Positions 38,433-63,833 of a DNA stretch of 64,000 bases are shown here, one piece after another. Within the stretch, counting starts at the first letter, position 1; each line of letters opens with the position of its first letter. The position numbers and the translations under genes are program-made. The DNA comes from Phaeobacter gallaeciensis DSM 26640. Its GTDB lineage: Bacteria > Pseudomonadota > Alphaproteobacteria > Rhodobacterales > Rhodobacteraceae. The notes under the pieces were generated by a model. The model had not been told where the DNA came from. It was given only the letters and a program-made list of their open reading frames with translations, and made no database searches. The stretch is from the NCBI RefSeq assembly GCF_000511385.1, contig NC_023137.1, positions 1,743,001 through 1,807,000 of the forward strand. The letters are read 5' to 3'.

Positions 38433-39512
38433 CTATCGCCGCTCTACGGCACGCAGGACGCTTTCTTGGTGGCGTGGCGAATGGTGCCCATAAACTTTTT
38501 CGATGGTCTCGGCGCTAGTCGCAAAGAAACCGGCAGCATCCCAGACACTTGCACCGTTTTGAAGCGCCCAGGTGATCGCAGTGTGTTTTAACGTATGTGG
38601 GGAGCAAGGGGTAACATCGGCGGATTGCACGGCTTTTGCAAAGGCTCGCTTTATGTCGCCGACACGTGCGCCCTGATATTCGACAGCCCACTTGCTTCCA
38701 CTATCACGCCAGCGCCTCAGGTGGGCCGCCAGCTGGCGGGGGATGCGTGCTGGTGTGCGCCGCTTGTTGGTTTGCCGCTCTGAATCACTGCGCCTGAACA
38801 TAATGCCCTGGTCCAGATCAAACCATCCTCCAACTGTGTTGGGCTCAAAACCCATCCGCAAAATGGCGTCCTTGCGAGTTCCAGTGTAGATCGCAATCAG
38901 GATAAAACGGGCGAGGTGGGAAGCCTTGTGGCCCCGGTAGGCCGCCCAGAGAAGCTTGGCAGCCTCATCACGGGACAGCCAGCGTTCAGTCGCCTCTGGC
39001 TTACCCGGCAGTGTGACGGCTGGTGCAGAAGTAATATAGCCCTCAGCATGGGCGTAGTTGATAGCCCGTTGCAGAACTCCTAACTCACGGCGCACTGTCC
39101 CTGGCGAGATAGGAGCGTATTCGATGGGTTCTTTAGTGTCCGGATCACGTTGGACAACTTTCTTTCGGGTCTTTGCGTACCGCCTACACGTTTCGCCCTT
39201 CACATGGCTCAGTTTCAGCCCATCCCAAAATGGGATCAGGGCATCAATCGCATATCCGACCCTCTCTGGCGCCGCGACGGTCGGGGCATATTCCTCAGCG
39301 TAGATTGCGAGAACCTCCCCACAGGTTACGTTGGCCGGCTCATTCGCAGAACCTTCCCGTCCTTTGGTCGCGATGTAGGCAGCGAGCGCTTTTTCAGCAT
39401 CTGCGCGGCTTGCGCAGCCCGTTGACTGGTCTGGCCTTCCGGTGTCCCGGATGTACCAGTACGGCCGGTGTTTGAATTTGTGCAGGCGGGCGCCCTTGCT
39501 TGGTCTTGGCAT
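38433..39512 (-). CDS. int: Tyrosine recombinase (phage integrase)
   Basis: A 359-residue integrase. The N-terminal arm-binding and SAM-like core-binding parts precede the catalytic domain. Arg213 (TGTRKDAIL), His306 (SPHTLKHTAITW) and the nucleophile Tyr341 (EKVYGHHSP) are visible. The usual HxxR box reads HTLK, a Lys variant. It lies about 100 bp from attL and is the last gene of the leftward operon. It should catalyse integration into and excision from tRNA-Arg. Its first 187 bp overlap the excisionase frame. Confidence 0.93.
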   Translation of the reverse strand: MPRPSKGARLHKFKHRPYWYIRDTGRPDQSTGCASRADAEKALAAYIATKGREGSANEPANVTCGEVLAIYAEEYAPTVAAPERVGYAIDALIPFWDGLKLSHVKGETCRRYAKTRKKVVQRDPDTKEPIEYAPISPGTVRRELGVLQRAINYAHAEGYITSAPAVTLPGKPEATERWLSRDEAAKLLWAAYRGHKASHLARFILIAIYTGTRKDAILRMGFEPNTVGGWFDLDQGIMFRRSDSERQTNKRRTPARIPRQLAAHLRRWRDSGSKWAVEYQGARVGDIKRAFAKAVQSADVTPCSPHTLKHTAITWALQNGASVWDAAGFFATSAETIEKVYGHHSPRHQESVLRAVERR

Positions 39513-39670: not shown

Positions 39671-39809
39671 ATTGGTCTCCAAGGGATTGTTGGGTTAATG
39701 GTGAGGGGATTTCGCGGCTCTTGTTGCTGAGAAAAATGGTGCGCAGCGCATCAACCGTGACAGGCGGGTTGCCCTCAAATTTTGCGGTTAGGAGTCTTAG
39801 TGTTTTCAT
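39663..39809 (-). CDS. Small phage protein between recombinase and excisionase genes
   Basis: A 48-residue protein beginning MKTLRLLTAKFEGNPPVTV. Its ATG overlaps the serine recombinase stop by 4 bp (ATGA) and its stop overlaps the excisionase start by 8 bp, so it looks translationally coupled on both sides. No family is recognised. The longer frame to 39884 is a shadow of the recombinase gene. Confidence 0.6.
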   Translation of the reverse strand: MKTLRLLTAKFEGNPPVTVDALRTIFLSNKSREIPSPLTQQSLGDQYG

Positions 39810-40459
39810 TGCTGCCACCCGGCATTTTCTCGAGTTGCACTTGACGTCAGCATTCCCTGTTGGGCTTTGAATTCCCTGACCCACTGATAGACGCGGGATT
39901 TGGCGATGCTGGGTCCGGGCATGGCTTTCATCACAGGGATGATCTTGGTTGCCGATACGCCTGCTAGGGCGAGTTCTGCGGCCTTCTCTATCCGTTCCGG
40001 TGTCATTGTCTGGGGCCTGCCGTGACGCGATCCGCGCTCACGGGCCGCTTTGACGCCTGCGATGGTGCGCTCCCTAATCAGGTCGCGCTCCATTTGCGCC
40101 AGGGCTGCCATGATGTGAAACATGCCCTTGCCCATGGGGCTAGTGAGGTCAAAGCGCTCTGTCAGGCTGACCAGCAGGACGTCGTTTGCCTCAAACACCT
40201 GCATTGCGCCGATGATGCCCAGCAGGGTACGGCCCAGTCTATCCAGCTTCCAAACCACGAACTCGCCACCAGTCTCCGCTGCGGTTGAGATAGCCGCTTG
40301 CAGCCCTGGGCGGTTTGTCTTTGCGCCGCTCATTTTGTCGGTAAAGATCATGGCGTCTGTGACGCCGTATTGTTTGAGGGCTGTGATCTGCATGTCCAGG
40401 TTCTGCTCTATTGTCGAGACGCGGGCGTATCCCACCTTCACGGGTTCAGGCTTGGTCAC
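39806..40459 (-). CDS. Serine recombinase (resolvase/invertase family)
   Basis: A 217-residue small serine recombinase. The nucleophile Ser15 lies in YARVSTIEQNLDMQ. KLDRLGRTLLGIIG, the long E helix near residues 105-135 with MAALAQMERDLIRERT, and a C-terminal HTH (AGVSATKIIPVM...SRVYQWV) complete the Hin/TnpR-type architecture. It lies in the leftward early operon beside the tyrosine integrase. No invertible segment or res site is visible nearby. It might act on a tail-fibre switch beyond the window or on plasmid-like multimers. Confidence 0.92.
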   Translation of the reverse strand: MTKPEPVKVGYARVSTIEQNLDMQITALKQYGVTDAMIFTDKMSGAKTNRPGLQAAISTAAETGGEFVVWKLDRLGRTLLGIIGAMQVFEANDVLLVSLTERFDLTSPMGKGMFHIMAALAQMERDLIRERTIAGVKAARERGSRHGRPQTMTPERIEKAAELALAGVSATKIIPVMKAMPGPSIAKSRVYQWVREFKAQQGMLTSSATRENAGWQQ

Positions 40460-40877: not shown

Positions 40878-40898
40878 GGGGATTGTTGGAATTCAGGC
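40878..40898 (-). repeat. Start-associated leader repeat, family A copy
   Basis: A 21-bp stretch containing GATTGTTGGAATTCAGGC is identical to one at 42267-42287. Read on the minus strand it runs from the stop codon of one gene to just before GGAG of the next. Shorter relatives with CAACAA then CCC and GGAG lie at 39677-39694, 40664-40680 and 44867-44880. Confidence 0.75.
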
Positions 40899-41624
40899 GG
40901 CCTTGGCCATCTGGTCGATGTTGCAGAAATAGGGAGTGAAGGTGATGGCCATCACCCAGGGGTTTGACGCCCAGCTTATGTCTGCGCCGCCCGGCTTGCG
41001 TGGAGTGCCGTTGATGCTATCCCAAAGTTCACTAAACTTCCTGACCAAGGTTTTGTTGTCGGCTTCCACACCTCGGTCAAATTCTGGATACACTCCAGTG
41101 ATCCAGTGGTTTAGCTGGCATCCCTCGTTAGCCGAGTCCGGTCCGTCTATGTCCTGGAGGCGCTGAACCCGCACCTCGGTCACGTCCAGTGTGATGCGGC
41201 TGGCCCATCGGGGCATGTGCATTGATTGTCGATGCTTGCCCGGTTTGATCATCATGCAGCCGAGTTCGCGAACCATGCTGTCGGCCAGATAGAATACTGG
41301 TTCCCCCTTGCTCATGTTTCTGGGCGCAATTCCGTCCATCTGTGAGCAGGCTTTCCAATGCTCTCTTACGAAAAGTCTGTCACCAGACTGCACCGGTAGA
41401 AGCTTCATTAGGTCATCGTGCCGGAAGTCTTCCCAGACGTGATCCTTGCGACGAAACGTCCAATCATAACCTCGCGTGTCACTTACGCCGAATTGAAAGA
41501 AGCCGGGTTTACCTTTGATCTTTAGGAGGCGGCGGGTCTGGGTCTTTCCGGCCCCAGGGGTGCGGATCTCGCGAAGAATGGCATTCACCATAGGGGCGCT
41601 GAAAAGGATAGGGCGGTCGGCCAT
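40893..41624 (-). CDS. Phage protein of unknown function (243 aa)
   Basis: A 243-residue protein beginning MADRPILFSAPMVNAIL. It contains GAGKTQTRRLLK near residue 25 and GDRLFVREHWKACS near residue 85. This pattern recurs in a phage family that resembles the ASCH RNA-binding fold (the GKTQTRR and VREAW-type blocks); the assignment is by memory of the family. GKTQ here is not a Walker A. ATG 41624 follows GGAG by 6 nt. It lies in the leftward early operon and may bind RNA or modified bases. Confidence 0.65.
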   Translation of the reverse strand: MADRPILFSAPMVNAILREIRTPGAGKTQTRRLLKIKGKPGFFQFGVSDTRGYDWTFRRKDHVWEDFRHDDLMKLLPVQSGDRLFVREHWKACSQMDGIAPRNMSKGEPVFYLADSMVRELGCMMIKPGKHRQSMHMPRWASRITLDVTEVRVQRLQDIDGPDSANEGCQLNHWITGVYPEFDRGVEADNKTLVRKFSELWDSINGTPRKPGGADISWASNPWVMAITFTPYFCNIDQMAKAA

Positions 41625-41632
41625 GGTTCTCT

Positions 41633-41660
41633 CCATCAAAAGGGTGGGGTTCGGGGTTGG
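41633..41660 (-). repeat. Start-associated leader repeat, family B copy
   Basis: The plus-strand text CCATCAAAAGGGTG...TTCGGGGTTGG recurs at 41819-41847 and 43023-43053 with small changes. Read on the minus strand it gives CCCCGAA...CACCCYTTTGATGGA just before three gene starts. Confidence 0.7.
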
Positions 41661-43022: not shown

Positions 43023-43053
43023 TTCCATCAAAGGGGTGCTAATTCGGGGCTGG
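43023..43053 (-). repeat. Start-associated leader repeat, family B copy
   Basis: Third family B copy, CCATCAAAGGGGTG then TTCGGGGCTGG, before the orphan methyltransferase gene. Confidence 0.7.
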
Positions 43054-43058
43054 TGGGA

Positions 43059-43832
43059 TCAGTAGTCACCGACTGAGGCGCAGACCTCGTCCCCATCGAC
43101 CTCGATCACGGTCTCGGCGGCGTACATAGCCAAGAGGCGCTGGGCGAGGCCGTAGGGCTTATTGGTGGTGAAACCCTCCCGGCCGCCCTTGCTGGCAATG
43201 ACGCCGGTGTAATCTCGGATACTGCTGATGGTGCCGGTGTGCAGCTCATCGCTGTCTTGGTTGAAGTCGGCCTTCAAACCATGGCGGATGCGCAGAGTGA
43301 CGTCGCAGGAGGTCTTTTCCCGGTGTTCATAGTACGCGCTGTCATCAAGGTAGATTGTCCACTCAGGGCCGAAACAGGTGCTGTCACGCGGATCCTCTCG
43401 CTCAATGATGCAGGTCACCACCTCACCGTATCCGCCGTCGCTCTCATGCGGCGCTCGCATCTCGTCCACGATCTCAGAGAGCTTTACCGATTTCGGCGCG
43501 ATCTTGAGCATCTGACCGATGTCTTCTTTCAGGCGCCCCTCAATCAGTTCCGACGCGATGGTCTCCACCTGTTTCAGAACCATGCCGCTAATCAGCGTGT
43601 TGTAGCTGGGCAGGTTCAGATCGTAGATTTTGAGGGCCTCAGAAATCTTGCGCTCTAGCTCCTGGCCAAAGGGTGAAAAGCTGCGTGTTGCCTGTTCAAT
43701 GGCATTTTCGACCGTCTTCGCGATTTGCTTATCCACGATCTCTTTCACTCGCTCTGGCGCCGTGGCACTGGCCAGCGCCTGGGCGGCCAGCTGTGCAATG
43801 TCTGTGGTTGGGGTGTCGACTTGGTCTTTCAT
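43059..43832 (-). CDS. Phage protein of unknown function (257 aa)
   Basis: A 257-residue protein beginning MKDQVDTPTTDIAQLAAQAL. The first 100 residues look alpha-helical and acidic, with AIEQATRSFSPFGQELERKI. The second half is mixed, with two Cys residues and a WTIYLDDSAYYEHREKTSC stretch. I recognise no family. The start at 43832 follows AGG at 10 nt; frames upstream are Pro/Arg-rich and non-coding. A gap of about 150 bp precedes it, with an imperfect GC-rich hairpin near 43940. Confidence 0.6.
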   Translation of the reverse strand: MKDQVDTPTTDIAQLAAQALASATAPERVKEIVDKQIAKTVENAIEQATRSFSPFGQELERKISEALKIYDLNLPSYNTLISGMVLKQVETIASELIEGRLKEDIGQMLKIAPKSVKLSEIVDEMRAPHESDGGYGEVVTCIIEREDPRDSTCFGPEWTIYLDDSAYYEHREKTSCDVTLRIRHGLKADFNQDSDELHTGTISSIRDYTGVIASKGGREGFTTNKPYGLAQRLLAMYAAETVIEVDGDEVCASVGDY

Positions 43833-43980
43833 GATGGCACCTATGATTTGCGATTTCAGCGCTGGGCGCGGCCGGTTTCCGTGAGTGGGATTGCCGCGCC
43901 CGGGTGGAGCGGGCGCCACCCCGCATGCGTTGGAAAAGGACCGGGACCGTGGCCCCGGCCAGTTTGTGCCTCAGCAGGTT

Positions 43981-44310
43981 TCAGGCCTCGGCAACAGGGA
44001 GTGAGGGTGGCAACGGCGCTTGCCCGTTGTAGGGGCAGTCAGGTCGCCAATCAGTGGCGCGGCGGGCCGGTGTCAGTCGGCAGGACATGCGGGCGGCGCG
44101 GGTCCACGCAGACAACGCGCTGGGCAGGTCAATGCCGTCCACGCTGATGCCCAGAAGATCCACGCGCCAATGCGCCTCATGGGCCGGAACGTCGGGCGTG
44201 ATCGGGCGCGCTGTGCCGCCAAGCGCGCGCAACAGGGTTGCCCGCCCGAACACGCCGCGATGTTCCATCGCCTGCGCTGCGGCATAGATTTCTTGCACGC
44301 TTGCGGGCAT
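43981..44310 (-). CDS. Phage early-left protein of unknown function (109 aa)
   Basis: A 109-residue protein beginning MPASVQEIYAAAQAMEHRG. The ATG overlaps the previous stop by 1 bp (TGATG). It contains GVFGRATLLRALGG and LLGISVDGIDLPSAL. No family is recognised. It is the third gene of a coupled trio starting at PL. Confidence 0.65.
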   Translation of the reverse strand: MPASVQEIYAAAQAMEHRGVFGRATLLRALGGTARPITPDVPAHEAHWRVDLLGISVDGIDLPSALSAWTRAARMSCRLTPARRATDWRPDCPYNGQAPLPPSLPVAEA

Positions 44311-44549
44311 CACGCGGCAACCTCGTGAGGCGACACCTTGGCAATCCAATTGCTGATCGCCTCATCCTCGCCGATGCCAGTCGCGCAGACGCCGTGCAGC
44401 TGGATCTCCACCAACGCGCGCTTTGGAAAGGGGAATGGGTAGAGGCCACCGGTTTCGATCACCGCGCAGGCCACAGCATCGCGGCGTTCACGGCCCTGCA
44501 GCTGGGCAATGGTCTGCGCAAAGCGGGCTGCAGTGGTTGCGGCGCTCAT
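44310..44549 (-). CDS. Phage early-left protein of unknown function (79 aa)
   Basis: A 79-residue protein beginning MSAATTAARFAQTIAQL, with a central FPKRALVEIQLHGVCATGI. Its start overlaps the preceding stop by 4 bp and its stop overlaps the next start by 1 bp. Tight coupling supports the call. No family is recognised. Confidence 0.65.
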   Translation of the reverse strand: MSAATTAARFAQTIAQLQGRERRDAVACAVIETGGLYPFPFPKRALVEIQLHGVCATGIGEDEAISNWIAKVSPHEVAA

Positions 44550-44885: not shown

Positions 44886-44938
44886 CATGTATGCGGTAAT
44901 ATTACCGCTGTCAACACGTTTGCGGTAATATTACCGCA
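44886..44938 (-). promoter_or_regulatory. PL promoter with OL operators
   Basis: Two identical 16-bp perfect palindromes GCGGTAATATTACCGC lie at 44893-44908 and 44922-44937. On the minus strand TTGACA (44914-44909) and TACATG (44891-44886) are separated by exactly 17 bp, which the first palindrome fills. Repressor binding would block RNA polymerase directly. The matching sites next to the repressor gene identify these as its operators. Confidence 0.85.
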
Positions 44939-45056: not shown

Positions 45057-45542
45057 CTAGCCCTCAAGGCGAAGCTCGGCATCTCTTTCAAGCTGCGCTG
45101 CTACTACAAATGGGAGAAAGCAGGCCAAGAGCAGTGATAGTGTTGACAAGAAGGTGAATACATAGCTTGCGATCTTGGTTGACTGCGAACACGACTGAAA
45201 ATCAAAAATCACCATAAAAAAAACACCAGAAATCACTGCCGACATGATTAACAAAATTAGATACTTCTGGCGTAGGATAGTACGCCTGTCGTCTTTGGCA
45301 GTATTGCGAGCGATCTCATATTTGTCACCTTTTTTGTAAGCAGCACTATTAGAAATTGGAGAAAAAGCTGCGACTATTGCTAAGGTGGAAAGTGACAGCC
45401 CAAAGATCACACTTAATGCCGTGATTGTTGTAGGTGCGACTTTCAATATAGTTTGAGGGGCGTTGTAGGCAAAGTGAGCAGAACCCAATGAAAGGCAAAC
45501 ACAAACTAAGAGCAGTGCTATATTTCTAACTATATCTGGCAT
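45057..45542 (-). CDS. RexB-like four-helix membrane protein
   Basis: A 161-residue membrane protein with four predicted helices. Two are N-terminal (IALLLVCVCLSLGSAHFAY and ALSVIFGLSLSTLAIVAAF). A highly charged loop of about 30 residues (KKGDKYEIARNTAKDDRR) follows, then two C-terminal helices. Lambda RexB (144 aa) has the same four-helix plan with a charged loop between helices 2 and 3. AGGA overlaps the upstream stop, so translation is coupled to the RexA-like gene. An ion-channel effector in superinfection exclusion is an inference from position and topology. GTG 45545 is an alternative start. The DNA is visibly AT-richer than its neighbours. Confidence 0.75.
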   Translation of the reverse strand: MPDIVRNIALLLVCVCLSLGSAHFAYNAPQTILKVAPTTITALSVIFGLSLSTLAIVAAFSPISNSAAYKKGDKYEIARNTAKDDRRTILRQKYLILLIMSAVISGVFFMVIFDFQSCSQSTKIASYVFTFLSTLSLLLACFLPFVVAAQLERDAELRLEG

Positions 45543-45551
45543 CACGAATTC

Positions 45552-46481
45552 CTAGTGCTCCTGCACGACGGACCGGTAAAATTCTAACATTTTCTGATGT
45601 GCATCGTCTGCGTTGTAACTGCTGCCACTAGCGGCCACTGATACGACTTCCTCAATAAGAAGACTGCCACTTTTTATGGACTGATTGTTATTGAGGATAA
45701 TTGTGTAGTTATCGATATCATCATCATCTAACACCGCTTTAGCTACGCTGTCCAGCCAAATGTTCTTATCTTGTTCCTCCAGAGCCACCCCAGGCTTGTA
45801 GTGAGTCTGAAACTTCTTGCTCGTCTTTACTGTCAGGGTTGCCGTGTTCTGTCGCTGTCTCTTGAGGGTTTCCGCCTTGCTACTTGATCCAAACAGTCGA
45901 GATAACGTCGTATCACCCAGTGCTTTCTCTGCGTCTCCGAGCAGCATTGTCGCATCGATTCTTATTTTCTTAACGCCCCACTTTACAATTTGCTCCCAGG
46001 TGTCCTTCCTTGGTATGTGGACGAAGTTGAACGATTGACTGGTGGGCAGAACTCCAGATCTCAAAGCAAGAGAGTGAAGCACGGCAGAAATATAATTCTG
46101 TTTTCCGTTGAATGAGCAGCCTATGACAAAATCGTCAATTGCAAGAAGGGAGAAATCTCTGTCAAGAAATTCAGTCCCATCCTGGGCCGGTTGTTGGCTA
46201 TGGTTGACGCTTTCCGTTGACCCTAGAAAGTTCAACGCGCTGATGCTTGCCCCTGGTTCAAAAGCAGACAAAATAGCCCCTACGCCAGTATTGTTAGGGT
46301 GTTGAAGAAATCTAGATAGGATCACATTTTTCGAGGCAGCAGACGGTGCGTGAACCCTATCCTCGTGTCGAGGCAGCTTGTGAGCTATGGCATTTAAAAC
46401 TTGTTCAAATGTAACATCTGTCTGTTCGCGAAACACCACTCGAAATGCTGTTAGGCGGATATTTCTCATGTCGCTAGGCAT
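45552..46481 (-). CDS. RexA-like soluble protein
   Basis: A 309-residue soluble protein with no signal or membrane segment. It sits second in the repressor transcript, as rexA (279 aa) does behind cI in lambda. By eye a region near residues 115-195 (DDFVIGCSFNG...IRIDATMLLGDAEKALGDT) has the spacing of the RexA region with IGFARTVFG...VKVEAKLPVFGDILKVLGAT. The C-terminal HQKMLEFYRSVVQEH also recalls the RexA end helix. This likeness is weak and untested. A DNA/replication-intermediate sensor role is inferred from RexA. The base composition is low in GC, suggesting a moron acquired separately. Confidence 0.7.
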   Translation of the reverse strand: MPSDMRNIRLTAFRVVFREQTDVTFEQVLNAIAHKLPRHEDRVHAPSAASKNVILSRFLQHPNNTGVGAILSAFEPGASISALNFLGSTESVNHSQQPAQDGTEFLDRDFSLLAIDDFVIGCSFNGKQNYISAVLHSLALRSGVLPTSQSFNFVHIPRKDTWEQIVKWGVKKIRIDATMLLGDAEKALGDTTLSRLFGSSSKAETLKRQRQNTATLTVKTSKKFQTHYKPGVALEEQDKNIWLDSVAKAVLDDDDIDNYTIILNNNQSIKSGSLLIEEVVSVAASGSSYNADDAHQKMLEFYRSVVQEH

Positions 46482-46553
46482 TTTAATAGACCTGTTAAAA
46501 TCGTTTCTAATATCGGTATTTAAAGCGCATATCGTTAGTTCGCTGGCTTTTTT

Positions 46554-47204
46554 TCACTTATTCCGAACTAAGTCAGCAGGCCAATGCAACCTTACGCGTC
46601 CAGCCCATTTTAACTGAACGCCGTACATGGGCGGGACAGTAGTGTTGAGGCTGTGAAGATCGTATGTGCCAATGTCGCGCCCTTCCTTGATCAACTTTAC
46701 CCACCCCATGCCGTCAACGTCTTCACAAACGCAACGATGGCCAATGACATCAACTGGTACGGTTTCGTGCCCATCGCGTCTATAAAACAGCAGATCCCCG
46801 GCTGAATACACCGGCTCCATACTGTCACCCTCGACCTCAACGGCAACAATGCCGTGCGGAGATAGGCCGGGTGGGCACTCAACCTGTGGCCCGCCACCCT
46901 TTTCGTAGGCGTCAAACACTGGAACTTGAGCCCCAGCACCGACCTTGCCAGCAATCGAGATGGTCGGATGAGAGGCTTCGCCTATTCCGTGCAGGAGCCA
47001 CAACTCGGATACGCCGAGTGTAGTTGCGACTTTGCTTATTGAGCTGACGTTAGCACCAGCGTTTTCGTCTCCTGCTTCATGTCGGCGCCGCCAGTTGCGA
47101 ATTCCATCTTTAGACATGCCAGACTGAACCGCCAGAGCTTGCTCTGACAGTTTGAGGCTCTCACGCCGCTCGGTAATCCGAGCCAGAATTTCACCCATAT
47201 CCAT
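46554..47204 (-). CDS. CI/LexA-type prophage repressor (HTH + S24 peptidase)
   Basis: A 216-residue repressor. The N-terminal HTH is LSEQALAVQSGMSKDGIRNW. The C-terminal S24 domain has Ser128 (VEGDSME) and Lys170 (WVKLIKEG). An Ala-Gly bond near residues 85-91 (IAGKVGAGAQ) is a possible self-cleavage site for RecA-stimulated induction. The ATG at 47204 has no ribosome site; TAAAAT lies 7 bp upstream, so the lysogenic mRNA is probably leaderless, like lambda cI from PRM. It should bind the GCGGTAA-type palindromes at OL and OR. Confidence 0.93.
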   Translation of the reverse strand: MDMGEILARITERRESLKLSEQALAVQSGMSKDGIRNWRRRHEAGDENAGANVSSISKVATTLGVSELWLLHGIGEASHPTISIAGKVGAGAQVPVFDAYEKGGGPQVECPPGLSPHGIVAVEVEGDSMEPVYSAGDLLFYRRDGHETVPVDVIGHRCVCEDVDGMGWVKLIKEGRDIGTYDLHSLNTTVPPMYGVQLKWAGRVRLHWPADLVRNK

Positions 47205-47291
47205 AGGGGTAATTTTACCGCAGTCGTAGTCGACCTGTGAGCGGTAAGATGACCGTTGACGATGCGGTAAAATAACCGCATATTGCAAATC
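47205..47291. promoter_or_regulatory. OR operators with PR and PRM promoters
   Basis: Three related palindromes: GGGGTAATTTTACCGC (47206-47221), GCGGTAAGATGACCGT (47241-47256) and GCGGTAAAATAACCGC (47264-47279). PR: TTGACG at 47256-47261, then 17 bp holding the third site, then CATATT at 47279-47284. PRM: TAAAAT on the minus strand at 47217-47212, inside the first site, with a poor -35 next to the middle site. This is the OR3-OR2-OR1 logic of lambda, where repressor at OR2 helps PRM and at OR3 blocks it. Confidence 0.8.
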
Positions 47292-47549
47292 ATGATGACA
47301 ATTGGATCTCTCTTGCTTGTCGCCGACGCCTACAAGGTCGCGGCTTCGGTTGATCGTGACCGAACTGTGTCTCATCGGGTTTTTGGGGATAGCAAAAAAC
47401 TATCAGCTCTCCGCTCTGGGGCGGGGATCGACGTCCGCCGTTTCAATAATGCGTTGCGGTGGTTTCTCGACAACTGGCCCGAGGGCCACGAAGCGCCGAA
47501 GGATCTTTGCGAGCACGTGAAAGCGGTGACACATGACACTGCCGCCTGA
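47292..47549 (+). CDS. Cro-position early protein
   Basis: An 85-residue protein beginning MMTIGSLLLVADAYKVAA, with VSHRVFGDSKKLSALRSGAGI and ending in a NWPEGHEAP segment. It is the first gene from PR, where lambda has cro. The sequence could hold an HTH (VADAYKVAA...VSHRVFG), but the match is not clear. The ATG is within about 10 bp of the expected transcription start, so this mRNA may also be leaderless. The same protein type recurs in rhodobacteral prophages as I recall it. Confidence 0.7.
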   Translation: MMTIGSLLLVADAYKVAASVDRDRTVSHRVFGDSKKLSALRSGAGIDVRRFNNALRWFLDNWPEGHEAPKDLCEHVKAVTHDTAA

Positions 47550-47629
47550 TCCTCCATCGGTGAGAGTTTCCACTTCCATAACAACAACCTGAAGGCTGAG
47601 CAGCCAAAACCCAAGGAAAAGCCGTTTCC

Positions 47630-48070
47630 ATGTGTGAAACCTACGAGACGCCCGCGCTGCGCAAGACCTTTGCCAGCCTGGTCAAAAAAGCAGGCGGCGG
47701 GCCTTCTGTCTGCATGGCCATCAAGGAAACCACCGGGCGCAGTCTGGCCCCCGGCACGCTGTCCAAGATCGCCGATGGGTCCATGCGCTTTGATTGGCAG
47801 TTGGCGTTTCAGATTGAGGATATCGCGGAGCAGTTCCCCATCACCGGACGGCTAAAGGCTCGGGTTGATGCGTCCCCGGCGCAGAGTGACCTGCAGCGGC
47901 TGGCCTACACCGCGCTAAAGGAGATCGGCGAGGTGCCAGCTGCAGTCTGCAGCTGGGTCGCCACAGGTGAACTGAGCGCGCTGGAAAAGGAGGGGCCCGA
48001 GGGATTGGCTGCGCTGGAGGCTTTCCTACAAGCGGTGCGTGTGGTCAAGCAGGGCGAGGGCCAATCATGA
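47630..48070 (+). CDS. CII-like phage regulatory protein
   Basis: A 146-residue protein with the look of the phage CII/CP76 regulator family. It begins ETPALRKTFASLVKKAGG and continues GRSLAPGTLSKIADGSMRFDWQLAFQIEDI, an alpha-helical HTH-like region. A second Ala/Leu-rich domain follows. It is second from PR, as cII is near cro in lambda-like phages. AAGGAAA precedes the ATG by 10 nt. Control of the lysis-lysogeny choice is an inference. Confidence 0.7.
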   Translation: MCETYETPALRKTFASLVKKAGGGPSVCMAIKETTGRSLAPGTLSKIADGSMRFDWQLAFQIEDIAEQFPITGRLKARVDASPAQSDLQRLAYTALKEIGEVPAAVCSWVATGELSALEKEGPEGLAALEAFLQAVRVVKQGEGQS

Positions 48071-48645: not shown

Positions 48646-48783
48646 ATGCAGGCAATCGGAGAGGCGTACAATCTCCGATTGCCAGCCACCCACAAGAACA
48701 TGCGCTGGGAGACTTCGCCGCTGAACATCACGGGACAGCGGAACACCAAAATCGTGCTGGCATCAGGACCCGGCGCATTCTGA
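48646..48783 (+). CDS. Possible small phage protein
   Basis: A 45-residue frame beginning MQAIGEAYNLRLPATHKNM and ending IVLASGPGAF. Third-position G/C use is high, as in its neighbours, but no ribosome site is visible and the start could be a TTG upstream (48604). A competing frame (48588-48890) reads Arg/His-rich protein and seems less likely. No family is recognised. Confidence 0.35.
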   Translation: MQAIGEAYNLRLPATHKNMRWETSPLNITGQRNTKIVLASGPGAF

Positions 48784-48882
48784 AGGTACATACACGCCTG
48801 AGAAGCACGATCACCGGGGCGCGGGCGGGCGCCAGAGGCGGGTTTTCCCGTCACCGTCAGCCATTCCGGAGGTGCGCAGCCC

Positions 48883-49476
48883 ATGGGTAAGCGCAGCACC
48901 TTCAAACGCCGCAAGAACGACCTGTACCGCACGCCATGGGATCCGGTGCCGCTGCTGGCGCCCCATCTGCCCACACGGTTCCGATATGCTGAGCCATGCG
49001 CCGGAAACGGGCGGCTGATTGATCACCTTCGATGTATCGGCGGCACCTGTACTGAGGCGGTCGATATCAATCCGGGGCGAGGGGACGTCACGCAGGGCAA
49101 CGCACTGCACTGGACTCCAACGGCTAAGGTAGGCCGTCCGCTCGATTACATCATCACAAACCCGCCCTGGTCGCGGGAAATCCTGCACCCGCTGATCTTG
49201 CGCCTGTCAGGTCTGTGCCCGACGTGGCTGCTGTTTGATGCGGACTGGTGCCACACGCTGCAGGCACAGCCGTACCTGCGTCACTGCCGCAAGATCGTCT
49301 CGGTCGGGCGGGTGAAGTGGATCGAGGGCAGCAAGCACACCGGAAAAGACAACTGCGCCTGGCATCTGTTCACAGCAGGGAGCCACGGGCGCACCGAGTT
49401 CGTCGGCAGGTCAGATGCAGCCAAAAAGACAACGCCCAGCGCTGGGCGCACTACGAGCAGTAGGAGCCAATCATGA
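48883..49476 (+). CDS. DNA methyltransferase-like protein (NPPW motif)
   Basis: A 197-residue protein with SAM motif AEPCAGNGRLIDHL near residue 36 and catalytic motif IITNPPWSREI near residue 90. This order (I before IV) and the NPPW motif suggest an N6-adenine methyltransferase of a short phage type. The Lys/Arg-rich N-terminus (GKRSTFKRRKNDLYRTP) includes the DLYxTP segment usual in these proteins. GGAGG lies 10 nt before the ATG. It overlaps the replication gene by 4 bp. Confidence 0.85.
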   Translation: MGKRSTFKRRKNDLYRTPWDPVPLLAPHLPTRFRYAEPCAGNGRLIDHLRCIGGTCTEAVDINPGRGDVTQGNALHWTPTAKVGRPLDYIITNPPWSREILHPLILRLSGLCPTWLLFDADWCHTLQAQPYLRHCRKIVSVGRVKWIEGSKHTGKDNCAWHLFTAGSHGRTEFVGRSDAAKKTTPSAGRTTSSRSQS

Positions 49477-50384
49477 GCCACAAGGCAGTCAGCTGGGCGC
49501 TTGAGCAACGCCACCTGAAACCGGGGCCATGGATCGTATTGATTCAACTGGCTGACCGGCACAACAAAGACACCCTGCAGTGTGATCCGGATCAGAAGCT
49601 GATCGCGGCCGACTGCAATATGTCTCGCGCCACGGTCAACCGACACCTTGAGGACCTTGAACACACGGGGTTGATCCGCCGTATCCCGCGGGTAAATCCT
49701 CGCACGAACAAGGCGCTTTCGACATTCTACATATTGGGCCTGAATTTCGACAACCCACCAGAGGTCGAATTTGCTGTGTCTCAAAATGAGACACGGAAAC
49801 CGAAGGGGCAAAAAGAGAACAAAGGCGCATCCCGTGTCTCAAATTGCGACACGGCCCCGAGTCTCAAAAATGCGGATTCCCGAGTCTCAAAAATCGCGAT
49901 TCCCGAGTCTCAAATTGAGACACAAACCTTAGTAAATAAACCCGTAAGGGAACATTGCGCGGCTGACGCCCCGCACAATCCTGAGTTTGATTTTGATGGT
50001 TTCATGGCTGAGTTCTCGGCTGCCTATCCTCGGATGGGTCTGCCAGAGGCGACCGAGGACGCACTGCGCGCGGCGCTGGGCGAGGGGGCAGACCCGGCGG
50101 AGATCCTGGCTGGTGCCCGGGCCTATGCGGTCGAGCAGGATGGCAATGCCCCGCGGTATATGAAGCTCTCCGAGAACTGGATCGCTGAGAAACGCTGGCG
50201 CCAGCACGTGACCGCCCCCAAGGCGCAGGCCGATCAATCCGAGGTGCTGGCCTACTGGGCGAAAGAGATCCTTGAGGCCAAGCCCCACATGCACGGTCGT
50301 GTGTCGCCGTCCATGGCCCGGGAATGCCTGAGCGCGGGACTGGTGACCGAGCAGGATTGCCGACAGGTCGGGGTGTCGCTGTGA
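49473..50384 (+). CDS. Phage replication protein with N-terminal winged HTH
   Basis: A 303-residue protein. Residues 1-90 form a winged HTH of the replication-initiator style: KPGPWIVLIQLADRHNKDT, then CNMSRATVNRHLEDLEHTGLI. A hydrophilic linker at residues 100-155 is encoded by the iteron-like repeats. The C-terminal part (FMAEFSAAYPRMGLPEATEDA) resembles the helicase-loader-binding half of phage O-type proteins. Having repeats inside the gene mirrors lambda O and its origin. Start ATG 49473 overlaps the methyltransferase gene by 4 bp. Confidence 0.75.
   Translation: MSHKAVSWALEQRHLKPGPWIVLIQLADRHNKDTLQCDPDQKLIAADCNMSRATVNRHLEDLEHTGLIRRIPRVNPRTNKALSTFYILGLNFDNPPEVEFAVSQNETRKPKGQKENKGASRVSNCDTAPSLKNADSRVSKIAIPESQIETQTLVNKPVREHCAADAPHNPEFDFDGFMAEFSAAYPRMGLPEATEDALRAALGEGADPAEILAGARAYAVEQDGNAPRYMKLSENWIAEKRWRQHVTAPKAQADQSEVLAYWAKEILEAKPHMHGRVSPSMARECLSAGLVTEQDCRQVGVSL
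49776..49923. repeat. Five iteron-like repeats, candidate phage replication origin
   Basis: Copies start at 49776, 49834, 49859, 49882 and 49905 and share GTCTCAAAnT. The first, GTGTCTCAAAATGAGACAC, is a perfect palindrome around AAA; the second and fifth are near-palindromes; the middle two have the form GAGTCTCAAAAATnnnGATTC. The last three are 23 bp apart. AT-rich sequence (TTAGTAAATAAA, 49929-49940) follows. All are inside the replication gene and are read through as its linker. Confidence 0.7.
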
Positions 50385-50698
50385 TGTCGCCGCATTCGGA
50401 CCCTGAAACCCACGGCGTGCAGTTTGGCCGGGTGGTGGTGACCGTCGACGCCGCACTGGGCGATTGCATCGTCATCGCCCCGCAGCCCGGCCCGATCTGC
50501 ACCAGCCCCAAGCGCATGCGCCTGAACAGCCTTGATGAGATCCGTGGGGCCTACCGCACCCAAAGCCGCCTCGCTGCGCGCGTACCGGATCAGCACCCCC
50601 ACGCCAAAGACATCGCGGCAGCGCTGGAGTTCGCAGGAAAGACGCTGAGCGCCGCACAGGGCGCAAAACACCAACCCAAAGGGCAGAGCAATGCTTGA
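50384..50698 (+). CDS. Phage protein of unknown function (104 aa)
   Basis: A 104-residue protein beginning MSPHSDPETHGVQFGR. The ATG overlaps the replication-gene stop by 1 bp (TGATG). It contains VVVTVDAALGDCIVIAPQPG and a C-terminal helical part with HPHAKDIAAALEFAGK. No family is recognised. A role near replication is suggested by coupling only. Confidence 0.65.
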   Translation: MSPHSDPETHGVQFGRVVVTVDAALGDCIVIAPQPGPICTSPKRMRLNSLDEIRGAYRTQSRLAARVPDQHPHAKDIAAALEFAGKTLSAAQGAKHQPKGQSNA

Positions 50699-51353
50699 TC
50701 AACAGGAACCGTCCAACGCGCAGATAAAGTCCGATGGCGATGCGCTCTATTTTCGCGCTGCGGCAGTTGTCGTCAGTGAAGGGAACGCCAGCACCAGCTT
50801 TGTGCAGCGCAAGCTCGCAATTGGGTACAACAAGGCCGCGCGTCTGATCGAACGCATGGAAGAGGCGGGAATCGTTTCTGCACCCAACCATGTGGGTAAG
50901 CGCGAGGTGGCGACGATTGAAACGATCCGCACCGCCCTGTCCCTGCAATCCGCCATCCCCGATGACGCAGACCGCGAAACCGTTGTGAAGATGCTGACAG
51001 CAGCCTGTGACGATATCGGTGGCCAGCAACTCAAAGCCAAGCACGCGGAGCAACGCAAGGCCTCTGGAAAGCCCCCCATGAAGGCGGACCCGGATTTCGA
51101 CAATGCCGCAGATACCACATACCGGGTGACAGCGGGTGAGTTGCGCCAGTTCATTGAACGGTTCGAACGCCTGGACGCTGAGAAGAAAGAGCTGGCGGAT
51201 CAACAGAAAGAGGTCATGGCAGAGGCCAAGGCTCGCGGCTACGACACCAAGGTCATCCGAAAGGTGATCGCCCTGCGTAAGCGCGACAAGGACGATATCG
51301 CCGAGGAAGAGGCCGTCCTAGAAATGTACAAAGAAGCGCTGGGCATGGGGTGA
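50691..51353 (+). CDS. FtsK-gamma / GapR (DUF2312) fusion protein
   Basis: A 220-residue two-domain protein. Residues 15-75 match the FtsK gamma winged helix (ASTSFVQRKLAIGYNKAARL, then MEEAGIVSAPN and GKREV), the domain by which FtsK reads KOPS. Residues 143-219 match GapR/DUF2312 (LRQFIERFERLDAEKKELAD, then AEAKARGYDTKVIRKVI), a coiled-coil protein that clamps overtwisted DNA in Caulobacter. A Lys-rich linker joins them. I know neither domain in this combination. It probably binds phage DNA during replication, perhaps at the nearby origin. It overlaps the preceding gene by 8 bp. Confidence 0.85.
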   Translation: MLDQQEPSNAQIKSDGDALYFRAAAVVVSEGNASTSFVQRKLAIGYNKAARLIERMEEAGIVSAPNHVGKREVATIETIRTALSLQSAIPDDADRETVVKMLTAACDDIGGQQLKAKHAEQRKASGKPPMKADPDFDNAADTTYRVTAGELRQFIERFERLDAEKKELADQQKEVMAEAKARGYDTKVIRKVIALRKRDKDDIAEEEAVLEMYKEALGMG

Positions 51354-51362
51354 GGCAGACAC

Positions 51363-51779
51363 ATGGAACGCATGACAGCTGCAGACTACAATAAAGCCCA
51401 GCGCGATGAGAAGGGGCAGGGGGAAGACCGGCGCCGGGTGCGCGGCACCAAGCGCACCACGACCGCTGACGGCATCACCCACGACAGCAAGACAGAGGCG
51501 GATCGCTGGGAAGAGCTGAAGCTGTTGCAGGCGAGCGGCGCTATCTGCGGTCTGCGTCGGCAGGCCCCGATCCCGCTCATCGGCCGGGATGGTCCGATCA
51601 TGACGGACAGCGGCAACCAGCAGCGGGTTTACAAGGCGGATTTCGTCTATGTCGACAACGCGCTGGGCGTCACCGTCGTTGAGGATCGCAAGGGGCATGA
51701 GACCGACAAATTCAAACTAGTGAAATCAGTTCTGGCGGCTCAGGGCATTGAGCTGCTGATCACCCGCGCAAAGGGGTGA
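51363..51779 (+). CDS. DUF1064 family phage protein
   Basis: A 138-residue protein of the DUF1064 group. SKTEADRWEELKLLQASGAI near residue 42 and YKADFVYVDN...VVEDRKGHETDKFKLVK near residue 90 are the family pattern. The conserved E-x(n)-D-x(n)-ExRK arrangement recalls a PD-(D/E)XK nuclease core, so Holliday-junction or other DNA cleavage has been suggested for the family. Activity is inferred. It lies in the replication/recombination module. Confidence 0.85.
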   Translation: MERMTAADYNKAQRDEKGQGEDRRRVRGTKRTTTADGITHDSKTEADRWEELKLLQASGAICGLRRQAPIPLIGRDGPIMTDSGNQQRVYKADFVYVDNALGVTVVEDRKGHETDKFKLVKSVLAAQGIELLITRAKG

Positions 51780-55595: not shown

Positions 55596-56003
55596 ATGGC
55601 CCAAATTCCGCGCCCTCGATACGGTGATATTTTCGCTGGCCACGACGAGGGTGGCAGTATCGCCGAACAGGCTTGCGTTCTCTGGGAGGAGTACAAAGCT
55701 GATCTTGAGGCTAGAGGCCTGTGGAATCGGGCGCGGGCTCGTACGCTTGACCGTCTGGTCCGGATGACTGCCGAGTATTTGCACTATCAACCCCTGGCGG
55801 TCGCGAACGGGCCGGTTCGCGATAGTAAGGATGGCGGGCAGTATGCCGACATGCTTTGGTCTCAGGTAAAAAATATGGCTGACCAAATCGCCAAGCTGGA
55901 AAAATCTTTGACCCTCACGCCTGAGAGCGTCGGCGCAAAGACAGAGGCTCCGTTGAAACCTGCAGCAAAGACACCGGCGGATGAGTTCCTCGGAGCGCAT
56001 TGA
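55596..56003 (+). CDS. Terminase small subunit (P27 family)
   Basis: A 135-residue protein beginning MAQIPRPRYGDIFAGHDEG. The central LWEEYKADLEARGLWNRAR and DRLVRMTAEYLHY helices fit the P27-type small terminase, which recognises the packaging site and recruits the large subunit. GGAG precedes the ATG. It overlaps the large terminase gene by 23 bp. Confidence 0.8.
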   Translation: MAQIPRPRYGDIFAGHDEGGSIAEQACVLWEEYKADLEARGLWNRARARTLDRLVRMTAEYLHYQPLAVANGPVRDSKDGGQYADMLWSQVKNMADQIAKLEKSLTLTPESVGAKTEAPLKPAAKTPADEFLGAH

Positions 56004-57759
56004 TCAGACAACGCAATATGCGCGTGACGTTATTGCAGGAAAAGTCATCGCTGGAGAGTTTGTCAGAGCACAGTGCAAGCGCCATCTAGATGATCTAAAG
56101 CAAGCACATAGGCGTGAATTGACTTGGGATGTCGACCAGGCTGAGCGGGCCATTCGTTTTTTCCCGGCGATGCTATCGATCACTGAGGGTGCAAAGGAGG
56201 GCGAACCGTTCACCCTGTTGCCGTGGCACCTGTTTGTTGTCGGGTCGATCTTCGGGTGGCGAACGGCGGATGGCTTTATTCGGTTCAGATTTGTGTGGTT
56301 AGAGACCGGCAAGGGGCAGGCCAAGTCGCCGTTGATGGCGGCGATTGGAATCTATCTCAGCGGGTTTTATGGGCGCAAGCGCGCTGAGGTTTATTGCATC
56401 GGAGAGACCAAAGACACCGCTCGGGTCATGTTTCGCGATGCTGTGGCGATGCTGCGGGCACCAATACCAGGCAAGGAGGGCATGACGCTTGAAGACGCGG
56501 CCTACGTGATCCGTGGAACTGGAGATCTCGCCTATAGCGTGGAGCACGCAAAGAGCGGATCCTTCATGCGGCCTATCGCAAACAACGACAGCGTTTCTGG
56601 ACCAAAGCCGATACTCGTGGCCGGTGACGAAATCCACGAGATGAAGACCAACAAGGCCATCGAGATGTGGCGGGCGGCCGTTACGAAGAAGCACGGCGAC
56701 AGCATCTTGATGCTTGGCACCAATACCCCAAGTGCAGATCAGCAGGTCGGTACAGACTACAGCGAGTTTTGCCAAAAGGTTGTAACCGGCGATTTCACAG
56801 ATGACAGTGTCTTCGCATATATCGCCAGAGTCGATGAAGGCGATGACCCTTTGAACGACGAAAGCTGCTGGATTAAGGCGCTGCCAGCTCTGGGCCTGAC
56901 ATACCCCATCGACAATGTGCGCAAGCTGGTCGTTACAGCCAAGCAGCAGATCAGCACGCAACTGACGACCAAGCGCCTTTATTTCGGGATCCCTGTTGGC
57001 ACGGCAGGATTCTGGACGTCTGAGCAGGCATGGAAGGAAGTTCAAGGCGCCGTTGATGAGAAGGCCATGCGAGGTCGCAAAGCGCATCTGGCGCTTGATC
57101 TGTCAGAGAAAAACGACCTGACCGCGCTAACAGCCGCGTGGGAGGGGGAAAAGATCGAGGTCAAGAACTGGTATTGGACGCGTGAATTTGAGGTCGAAGA
57201 GCGTTCCACTGCCGATGCAATTCCTTACCGTGAACTGGAAGAAGCGAACCTGATCGAAATCACGCCAGGACGCGTGATTGATTACAGCTTCATCGCGGCC
57301 AAGATCATTGAATTCTGTGGCCGCCATGATGTGGTGCAGATGGCAATCGACAGCGCACATATGGAAAAGCTCTGCGAAGCCTTCGACACCGCCGGATTTA
57401 GCTACTGGATCGAAGAGGGTGACGACAAGACGGGCTCCGGCCTCAAGGTCGTGCGCCATAAACAGGGTCACAGCGTGAGCTTTGACGCCAAATTTCTCTG
57501 CATGCCAACCTCGATCACACAGCTTGAAGACCACATGCTCAAAGGCACAGTAGTCATCGACCGGAACAAATTGACCAGCATTTGCGCCCGCAACGCAATC
57601 ATCCGCGAAGACGGGTTCAGCAACCGCATGTTCGACAAATCGAGATCGCGGGGCCGGATCGATGGGGTTGTCACCTTGGCAATGGCAGTCGGATCGGCAA
57701 CGGCGGCGATGAAAGACAAGACCAGCGTCTATGAGGCGCGCGGCATTTTGAGTTTCTGA
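55981..57759 (+). CDS. Terminase large subunit
   Basis: A 592-residue packaging motor of the HK97-type Terminase_1 family. The ATPase half shows WLETGKGQAKSPLMAAIG (Walker A-like) near residue 106 and ILVAGDEIHEMKT (Walker B with Glu) near residue 210. The nuclease half begins at HLALDLSEKNDLTAL near residue 365 (RNase H-fold Asp), with VQMAIDSAHMEKL and RGRIDGVVTLAMA later supplying Asp residues. It cuts concatemers and drives DNA into proheads. Confidence 0.95.
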   Translation: MSSSERIDQTTQYARDVIAGKVIAGEFVRAQCKRHLDDLKQAHRRELTWDVDQAERAIRFFPAMLSITEGAKEGEPFTLLPWHLFVVGSIFGWRTADGFIRFRFVWLETGKGQAKSPLMAAIGIYLSGFYGRKRAEVYCIGETKDTARVMFRDAVAMLRAPIPGKEGMTLEDAAYVIRGTGDLAYSVEHAKSGSFMRPIANNDSVSGPKPILVAGDEIHEMKTNKAIEMWRAAVTKKHGDSILMLGTNTPSADQQVGTDYSEFCQKVVTGDFTDDSVFAYIARVDEGDDPLNDESCWIKALPALGLTYPIDNVRKLVVTAKQQISTQLTTKRLYFGIPVGTAGFWTSEQAWKEVQGAVDEKAMRGRKAHLALDLSEKNDLTALTAAWEGEKIEVKNWYWTREFEVEERSTADAIPYRELEEANLIEITPGRVIDYSFIAAKIIEFCGRHDVVQMAIDSAHMEKLCEAFDTAGFSYWIEEGDDKTGSGLKVVRHKQGHSVSFDAKFLCMPTSITQLEDHMLKGTVVIDRNKLTSICARNAIIREDGFSNRMFDKSRSRGRIDGVVTLAMAVGSATAAMKDKTSVYEARGILSF

Positions 57760-57766
57760 GGCATAT

Positions 57767-59017
57767 ATGGGCATCTTTGACCGTTTCCGCCTCAAGGGCC
57801 GGGATCAAGAACGCGGGTTGGACACAAAGGCGATGACAGGCGACGGTATGTCGTTCTCTGGCCTCAATGACCCCGCGTTATACGAGTTCATCCGTGGTGG
57901 AACAACTTCGGCTACGGCATCTGGTGTGTCCGTTTCAGCGAAGACGGCTCTCAAAAATACCGCAGTGCTACGGTCCGTTTCTCTTTTGTCGTTCTCCATC
58001 GGGATGCTGCCTTTACACCTTAAAGACAAGGTGACCAAGGAAAACGCAGTTCACCCTGTCCACCAGTTATTACACCGCAGGCCGAATGCGTGGCAAACGG
58101 CCTATGAGTTTCGAGCGGTTATGCAGCAACGTGCGCTAACCGAGGGCGATGCATTTGCGCTCAAAGTGCGCAGCGGTCGCCGTATTATCCAACTCGTTCC
58201 GCTTGTGAACTGCAAACCCACGCAAAACTCTGACTGGTCACTGTCTTACACCGTAACGCGCAAGGATGGCGGGAAGGTCACCTATTCACAGGATGACATT
58301 CTACACCTTCGATATGGGCTCTCTGATGACGGCTTCACTGGTCTATCACTGGTCAAGCAGGCGGCAGAGGCAATCGGGCTGGCGCTATCCGCTGAGCGGG
58401 CTGCCGCACGGATGTTCAGTAAAGGTATGATCGTTGACGGGGTATTGCGGCACCCGAACCAAATCTCGCCTGAGGTTTTTGAGCGCTTGAAGGCAAGCAT
58501 GCAGGAAGCTGAAGGTGCCGAGAACGCTCACAAGTGGAAGATCCTGGAAGAAGGCATGGATATGACGCCGTTTCAGGCGCCAGGTCGTGACGCTCAAGGT
58601 TTAGAGCAGCGCCAGCACCAGATCGAAGAAATCGCGCGGGTTTTTGGTGTTCCGCGCCCTCTTCTGATGATGGACGAAACCTCATGGGGGTCTGGCATCG
58701 ATGTTTTGGGTCAGTTCTTCGTCCGTTATTCGCTCAATCCGTGGTTCGAGGCTTGGCAGCAGGCAATTGAGCGCGATCTTCTGACCGAAGCAGAAGCTGA
58801 TCGATACGAGGCGAAATTCAACGCTGGCGGTCTGCTGCGCGGATCAATGAAAGATCAGGCTGACTTCTTCGCTAAGGGTCTGGGGTCTGGCGGGCATCAG
58901 CCCTGGCTGCACCCTGACGAGCCGCGGGCATGGATGGACTTACCGCAACGACACGATTTGCCCGAGCCGATGGGCGCAAAGAAAGGGGCGAGCAATGAGC
59001 ATTCGCAAACTTCCTGA
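57767..59017 (+). CDS. Portal protein (HK97 family)
   Basis: A 416-residue portal protein. LKNTAVLRSVSLLSFSIGMLPLHL near residue 62, HPVHQLLHRRPNAWQTAYEF near residue 95, and ILHLRYGLSDDGFTGLSLV followed by the clip/stem region with VFGVPRPLLM are typical. It forms the dodecameric ring at the packaging vertex. It starts 7 bp after the terminase stop and overlaps the protease gene by 23 bp. Confidence 0.95.
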   Translation: MGIFDRFRLKGRDQERGLDTKAMTGDGMSFSGLNDPALYEFIRGGTTSATASGVSVSAKTALKNTAVLRSVSLLSFSIGMLPLHLKDKVTKENAVHPVHQLLHRRPNAWQTAYEFRAVMQQRALTEGDAFALKVRSGRRIIQLVPLVNCKPTQNSDWSLSYTVTRKDGGKVTYSQDDILHLRYGLSDDGFTGLSLVKQAAEAIGLALSAERAAARMFSKGMIVDGVLRHPNQISPEVFERLKASMQEAEGAENAHKWKILEEGMDMTPFQAPGRDAQGLEQRQHQIEEIARVFGVPRPLLMMDETSWGSGIDVLGQFFVRYSLNPWFEAWQQAIERDLLTEAEADRYEAKFNAGGLLRGSMKDQADFFAKGLGSGGHQPWLHPDEPRAWMDLPQRHDLPEPMGAKKGASNEHSQTS

Positions 59018-63386: not shown

Positions 63387-63833
63387 ATGGCGCACCAGAC
63401 CGCCTCTGGGGTGACGCTCGGCATTTCTGCCGCCGCGCCCGCAACCCATGACACCGCAGGGTTTGACGCCCTGACCTTCATCCCGGTTGGTGAGATCACC
63501 GAAGTGGGCGAATTCGGTAAAGAATGGGCCCTCGTTACCCACAACCCGCTGTCAACCCGGGGCACCAAGAAGGGCAAGGGGAGCTATAACAATGGCAACC
63601 TGAACCCGAGCCTTGCACTCGATCCCGACGACGCCGGGCAAACTGCGATGGAAACCGCGCTTGAAAGCGATGATCCGGTTTACATGGCGATCACCCTTCA
63701 GGATGGAACGGTCTTCTATCTTGTGGGTTTGGTGATGTCGTTCAAGGCAGGCATCCGCGGCGTGGATGATGTGGTTACGGCCACCACCTCAATTGAGCTG
63801 ACCCCTGAGCAGATCCTCAAAAAGGCCGCGTAA
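63387..63833 (+). CDS. Major tail tube protein
   Basis: A 148-residue protein with tail-tube features. TLGISAAAPATHDTAGFDAL and VGEITEVGEFG at the N-terminus, a beta-rich centre with NPSLALDPDDAGQTAMETAL, and a late TTSIELTPEQILKK. AAGGAAA precedes the ATG. It polymerises into the tube of a long non-contractile tail. Confidence 0.88.
   Translation: MAHQTASGVTLGISAAAPATHDTAGFDALTFIPVGEITEVGEFGKEWALVTHNPLSTRGTKKGKGSYNNGNLNPSLALDPDDAGQTAMETALESDDPVYMAITLQDGTVFYLVGLVMSFKAGIRGVDDVVTATTSIELTPEQILKKAA

Follow-up and report, generated by a model that had tools for sequence, protein, structure and literature searches.

Described RexAB systems and the locus in Phaeobacter

In most of the RexAB systems described to date, phage DNA or proteins are reported to trigger a four-helix channel, membrane potential or integrity is lost, and the infection is aborted (PMC12894663, PMC6426596). 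The RexA proteins of lambda, Sbash, CarolAnn and Toast are dimeric and bind DNA non-specifically (PMC11077077), and the RexA-like protein of Pseudomonas putida is likewise reported to bind DNA non-specifically as a dimer (PMC12894663). By the count in PMC12894663 only five RexAB-like systems had been described as of January 2026, and the same source calls the Rex trigger still unexplained some 70 years after discovery. Here we describe a pair of genes behind the repressor of a prophage in Phaeobacter gallaeciensis DSM 26640, within a window of 64,000 nucleotides (NC_023137.1, positions 1,743,001 to 1,807,000; all positions below are those of the window). We consider it quite likely that, in a lambda-like prophage, the pair forms a lysogen-expressed cassette of the RexAB type for abortive infection; expression in the lysogen and action in defence would be expected by analogy with the described systems. 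Our literature search gave no RexAB report for Phaeobacter and, judging by titles, no such pair in Roseobacter prophages, with most subscription journals lying outside the search. From right to left, the immunity region consists of three operator-like sites, the S24 repressor, the genes for proteins of 309 and 161 amino acids (aa), and two palindromes:

44893..44908, operator-like palindrome of the left group (OL-like), GCGGTAATATTACCGC, 16 bases, 0 mismatches
44922..44937, operator-like palindrome of the left group (OL-like), GCGGTAATATTACCGC, 16 bases, 0 mismatches
45057..45542, minus strand, four-helix membrane protein of 161 aa, RexB-like by position, size and topology (hydropathy, charge, model)
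45552..46481, minus strand, soluble protein of 309 aa with a predicted RexA fold (top match in the Protein Data Bank, PDB: 8twq, lambda RexA)
46554..47204, minus strand, CI/LexA-like S24 prophage repressor of 216 aa (Peptidase_S24, E 9.8e-10; phrog_4 transcriptional repressor, E 4.3e-22)
47206..47221, operator-like site of the right group (OR-like), 2 mismatches to the palindrome, overlapping the promoter-like site
47212..47241, minus strand, PRM-like promoter candidate, CTCACA-18-TAAAAT (consensus scan)
47241..47256, operator-like site of the right group, 3 mismatches
47264..47279, operator-like site of the right group, 2 mismatches

The first-pass annotation of this DNA had placed the repressor gene and the genes for 309 and 161 aa on one strand within 45057..47204, with operators on both sides and in the lambda-like order OL-rexB-rexA-cI-OR, and frames, strand, lengths and layout were found as described. 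The order of genes and operators equals that of the lambda record (NC_001416, 35825-37114), where all lie on one strand and cro comes next. The overlap of stop and ribosome site that had been claimed is also present, the AGGA of the ribosome site overlapping the stop TAG of the soluble gene at the minus-strand junction CACTAGGAATTCGTGATG. Two start codons are available to the membrane gene, ATG at 45542, giving 161 aa, and GTG at 45545, giving 162 aa. Sites with up to 4 mismatches to the palindrome number 8 in the 64 kb, and the 5 with up to 3 mismatches all flank the block of repressor and pair; with up to 4 mismatches allowed, the number of sites in six random Markov sequences ranged from 0 to 6. 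The position of the TAAAAT box predicts a transcription start at about the ATG of the repressor. The lambda cI transcript from PRM is leaderless too. With 6 promoter-like sites in the consensus scan against an expected 2.7, the PRM-like promoter is a weak candidate. The same type of scan listed no terminator on that strand in the stretch that separates the pair from the left operators. From this layout, repressor, RexA-like and RexB-like genes would form one leftward operon under a repressor-controlled promoter.

The proteins resemble the lambda partners in size (309 and 161 aa against 279 and 144 aa), in the four-helix membrane partner and in the predicted RexA fold, but show no detectable sequence similarity to them. 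In the P. putida pair RexABpp (PP_5643/PP_5644) two genes lie between the pair and the repressor, and DNA binding and membrane damage have been shown there (PMC12894663), both being predictions for the window pair. CarolAnn gp44/gp43 of a Gordonia phage and Sbash gp30/gp31 of a Mycobacterium phage have the same succession of a RexA-like gene and a four-helix gene, but with longer soluble proteins of 370-372 aa. The CarolAnn pair follows the repressor and the Sbash pair lies away from it; both arrangements occur in the present family. Within its prophage the window pair follows a CI-like repressor and is framed by operators, a placement known from lambda and CarolAnn but not required of the kind, as Sbash is without it. 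Taken together, the comparison supports membership of the window pair in the RexAB kind, and the earlier guess from gene order and size was right in kind.

The soluble protein and its membrane partner

The fold comparison with RexA that the first-pass annotation had proposed placed lambda RexA (8twq) first among solved structures for the predicted structure of the 309-aa protein, and the model has a split globular domain and a dimerisation domain, as in RexA. RdgC was a weaker fold match than RexA, and was neither the closest fold nor a profile match; RdgC is not known to have a membrane partner. The nearest relatives of the soluble protein are found in Phaeobacter inhibens and Shimia. In a library of predicted viral folds its first match was a 314-aa protein of Siphoviridae sp. 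ctylc9 (E 2.1e-11). The first match of the membrane protein there, weak when taken alone, was a 172-aa protein (E 0.093, probability 0.99, 20% identity), so that both partners have their first match in proteins of one phage.

The membrane protein has the four hydrophobic cores and the charged loop between helices 2 and 3 that had been read from the sequence at the outset, with 9 positive and 4 negative residues in the loop, and its model contains four helices. Among relatives (n=19) this loop carries 2-9 positive residues and the other two loops 0-2 and 0-1. Because positive residues concentrate there, the positive-inside rule places the central loop in the cytoplasm, the topology being assigned from charge and hydropathy only. 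The soluble protein thus has an adjacent four-helix partner with a predicted cytoplasmic central loop. Sbash gp31 has the same predicted topology, and two substitutions in its central loop are reported to abolish defence (PMC6426596).

Several results weigh against the assignment to RexAB. Confidence in the 309-aa model is moderate (predicted local distance difference test, pLDDT, 72.6), and its whole-chain TM-score to RexA is only 0.37-0.40. The membrane model, built from 4 sequences, is poor (pLDDT 63.8, predicted TM-score 0.46), and matched only generic bundles in the PDB; in 3 of the 19 relatives the central loop carries a net negative charge. The pair has no match to Pfam RexA or RexB, PHROGs, PADLOC or NCBIfam: none of 23 soluble family members matches PF15969 (Pfam RexA) at E up to 10, and PF15968 (Pfam RexB) was not matched by the window membrane protein among the best 25 of 71 families (19 members). 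As positive controls, lambda RexA and RexB match their Pfam families at 1e-97 and 8.5e-92. Profile comparison (hhalign) with lambda-type and Sbash-type RexA and RexB, and with CarolAnn, gave nothing significant (best E 0.015), but the known proteins were represented by just 3 to 5 sequences, which leaves the test little power, and the controls failed likewise: lambda-type against Sbash-type RexA, both accepted as RexA, gave E 0.32, and lambda RexB against the Sbash gp31 group E 0.27. The soluble protein is also less basic than lambda RexA, with an isoelectric point of 6.4 against 8.6. The latter is no obstacle to DNA binding, because Sbash gp30 (6.1) and CarolAnn gp44 (5.6) are equally acidic and are reported DNA binders.

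As the profile comparison failed together with its controls, what speaks for RexA is the fold, the order of the genes and the partner. The proposal of a Rex type, either diverged or convergent, can be narrowed for the soluble protein, where the predicted fold favours divergence from RexA over convergence; for the membrane protein there was no significant hhalign or Pfam match to RexB, in a comparison whose control failed too. Since the RexAB model of DefenseFinder is described as built from Pfam or COG sequences (PMC9090908), it probably misses the present branch.

The pair as a unit and its apparent exchange with the immunity region

In 24 of 25 testable loci the membrane-protein gene directly follows the soluble gene. 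The loci inspected were 26, including the window and an annotated Ketogulonicigenium plasmid locus (L020), whose partner was assigned from annotation and alignment; the sequence of L011 stops short of where the membrane gene would lie. The single miss, L036, is a marginal match (E 1.6e-4) with no membrane gene downstream. When two near copies of the Shimia locus L002 are left out (L003 and L005, with 1452 and 1458 of 1458 bases identical), the count becomes 22/23. Counted as having a partner are also weak cases, namely L009 and L053, where stops break the soluble frame, L012 and L033, where the soluble part is cut, and L055, a weak match whose partner has 2 hydrophobic peaks, and at least 6 of the counted partners show 3 and not 4 hydrophobic peaks in the hydropathy script. 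The intergenic gap in 15 measured pairs ranges from -26 to 70 bases. Distances of the two partners correlate (Mantel r 0.878, 0 of 5000 permutations, 15 pairs, leaving out broken, cut and duplicate pairs and four further loci), which co-descent with the host alone could also explain. The pairing is more than chance.

L009 (G045:C1:2785781-2789383) is a copy in which stops or frameshifts disrupt the soluble gene, while the four-helix gene has an open frame. A third component, the gene directly upstream of the pair in L007 (558-1478) and L008 (2364-3299), was considered and dropped, as by eye and from a sequence motif it looks like thyX (flavin-dependent thymidylate synthase).

The AT-richness noted for the pair is pronounced: guanine plus cytosine (G+C) content is 45.3% against 58.3% for the window, and a scan of the window in 25-base steps showed no other stretch of 1425 bases below 53.8%. 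The cassette lies below its own locus in all 14 loci compared. The family, with 51 members, is mainly alphaproteobacterial and thinly spread, being found in 2 of 7 genomes of the genus, 8 of 394 of the taxonomic family and 10 of 390 of the order, and in wider samples in 3 of 385 of the class and 6 of 398 of the phylum; these samples overlap, the window's own genome is among them, and they were searched with different queries.

In the P. inhibens prophage L004 (protein equal to P0002) the pair lies inside the immunity region, as in the window. Most family loci examined are not beside a repressor, an S24 motif scan of 12 of them (pattern only, no library) giving no hit. In Shimia L002 and its near copies, one of them from IMG/VR, the pair lies downstream of an integrase-like gene (by eye). 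It stands behind a D12 DNA methyltransferase in G957 (L046), with a phage tail gene further upstream, and a D12-family methyltransferase is likewise upstream in G825 (L047). ABC-3C, MmeI-like and dCTP-deaminase genes are near the pair in G167 (L017), Vsr and Eco29kI-like genes lie 2-4 kb away in G088 (L048), and restriction and methyltransferase genes are close by on the Ketogulonicigenium plasmid. G866 (L044) has an integrase at about 5 kb and a DUF5906 gene at 2 kb, and L013, L014, L015, L024, L045 and L049 appear by eye to be plain chromosome. Orphan RexA homologues outside prophages have been mentioned before (PMC11077077), and according to DefenseFinder most RexAB systems, but not all, lie on prophages (PMC9090908). 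A genome of the window's genus but of another species (G075, L022/L024) carries a diverged pair of another subfamily on apparently plain chromosome.

L004, a sequence of 17 kb, shares phage DNA with the window on both sides of the immunity block, with 94-97% identity at 41149-41648, 43033-43897, 48700-49045 and 49318-51779, and less at 44006-44531 (90.5%), 40878-41027 (85%) and the integrase (81%). Between 44531 and 48700 they align in two short stretches only (76% and 79%). The repressors share 100 of 140 residues in the C-terminal part and 18 of 71 in the DNA-binding part, and identity is 63% for the RexA-like and 51% for the RexB-like partners. To the left and right of the block L004 has sites of its own, of the types GGGTAAGTTTACCC and GGGTAAACTTCCC (read by eye). 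Because near-identical flanks enclose a different repressor head, different operators and different alleles, the two prophages look heteroimmune, apparently by exchange of the whole block. The alleles thus change with the immunity region, whereas RexA is identical in phage 434 and lambda.

It seems somewhat more probable than not that RexAB, far from being peculiar to lambda, belongs as a branch to a wide and mobile family of abortive-infection modules that are DNA-sensing and membrane-gated. In Alphaproteobacteria a fixed, AT-rich two-gene cassette would move among prophage immunity regions, further sites in phages, a plasmid and the neighbourhoods of host restriction genes; within the immunity region it would be swapped along with repressor and operators as one heteroimmunity module. 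Published mentions of chromosomal RexA and of RexAB outside prophages make this wider view slightly less probable. An alphaproteobacterial lineage that keeps the lambda architecture without recognisable sequence, also as bacterial cassettes near restriction genes, would point to many new pairs. Copies away from a repressor would separate defence from the lysogeny switch, and near-identical prophages with different alleles, such as L004 and the window, allow a direct swap comparison.

Mode of action, alternatives and the surrounding prophage

From its predicted RexA fold the soluble protein should dimerise and hold DNA. Replication or recombination DNA of a superinfecting phage, or a trigger protein, would then activate the four-helix membrane protein, perhaps via its charged central loop; the channel so opened would depolarise the membrane and stop the infection. 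The trigger, channel and depolarisation steps are modelled on lambda, Sbash, CarolAnn and P. putida, and two cautions apply: mutants of lambda RexA are reported to show that exclusion does not strictly depend on DNA binding (PMC11077077), and for P. putida no binding of RexA to RexB was observed, according to PMC12894663.

Within the RexAB kind the chief alternative is a reversal of roles, in which the RexA-like protein would be a growth-stopping effector, tethered and silenced by the membrane protein until infection releases it. Such roles are described for gp30/gp31 of the Mycobacterium phage Butters, which has a similar two-gene Rex-like layout with the soluble protein as effector (PMC12894663), and genes that stay together in all testable loci but one fit toxin and keeper as well as sensor and channel. 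We nevertheless regard it as unlikely, the membrane protein being reported as the effector in three of the five described systems (PMC12894663). Position between operators, and alleles that in two prophages, near-identical elsewhere, change along with repressor and operators, would also suit a pair that mainly tunes the lysogeny-lysis switch of its own prophage, with defence secondary, and lambda RexA is reported to bias this switch (PMC11077077). That most family loci examined are not beside a repressor, several being on chromosomes or a plasmid, makes this quite improbable.

We give very little probability to a Kiwa-like standing complex of membrane and DNA-binding protein, which would catch phage DNA and block replication without depolarisation. 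The PADLOC library includes Kiwa models and, remote relatives aside, no Kiwa family was among the PADLOC matches; fold evidence favours RexA, and the gene order differs, Kiwa being listed as kwaA/kwaB and the window pair having the soluble gene first. The composition is the same, a membrane protein with a DNA-binding partner, and KwaA tetramers and KwaB dimers are described to form membrane complexes (PMC12904381). It is just as improbable that the two genes adjoin each other without being related in function, one coding for a DNA-binding protein that has the RexA/RdgC fold but another role, the other for a holin-like or injection-blocking membrane protein. The lack of a significant RexB match and a weak holin match (phrog_920, E 0.076) would agree with such a reading, but the two genes are inherited together, outside prophages too. 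A RexAB-type cassette with a sensing soluble protein and a membrane channel is the reading we prefer.

From the genes present, the prophage in the right part of the window is real, with integrase, O-like replication, terminase, portal, capsid and tail genes:

38433..39512, minus strand, prophage integrase, leftmost prophage gene seen (phrog_1, E 6.3e-35)
47283..47549, plus strand, first rightward gene, cro position (phrog_7669, E 1e-11)
49473..50384, plus strand, O-like phage replication initiation protein (phrog_270, E 1.3e-20)
55981..57759, plus strand, terminase large subunit, start of the late genes (phrog_9, E 1.7e-105)
57767-59017, portal
59848-61086, capsid
63387-63833, tail protein

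At the cro and cII positions (47283-48070) the 88-aa protein matches only a PHROG of unknown function and the 146-aa protein matches nothing. At the left end of the prophage, a serine recombinase of the DNA invertase type (39806-40459) adjoins the tyrosine integrase.
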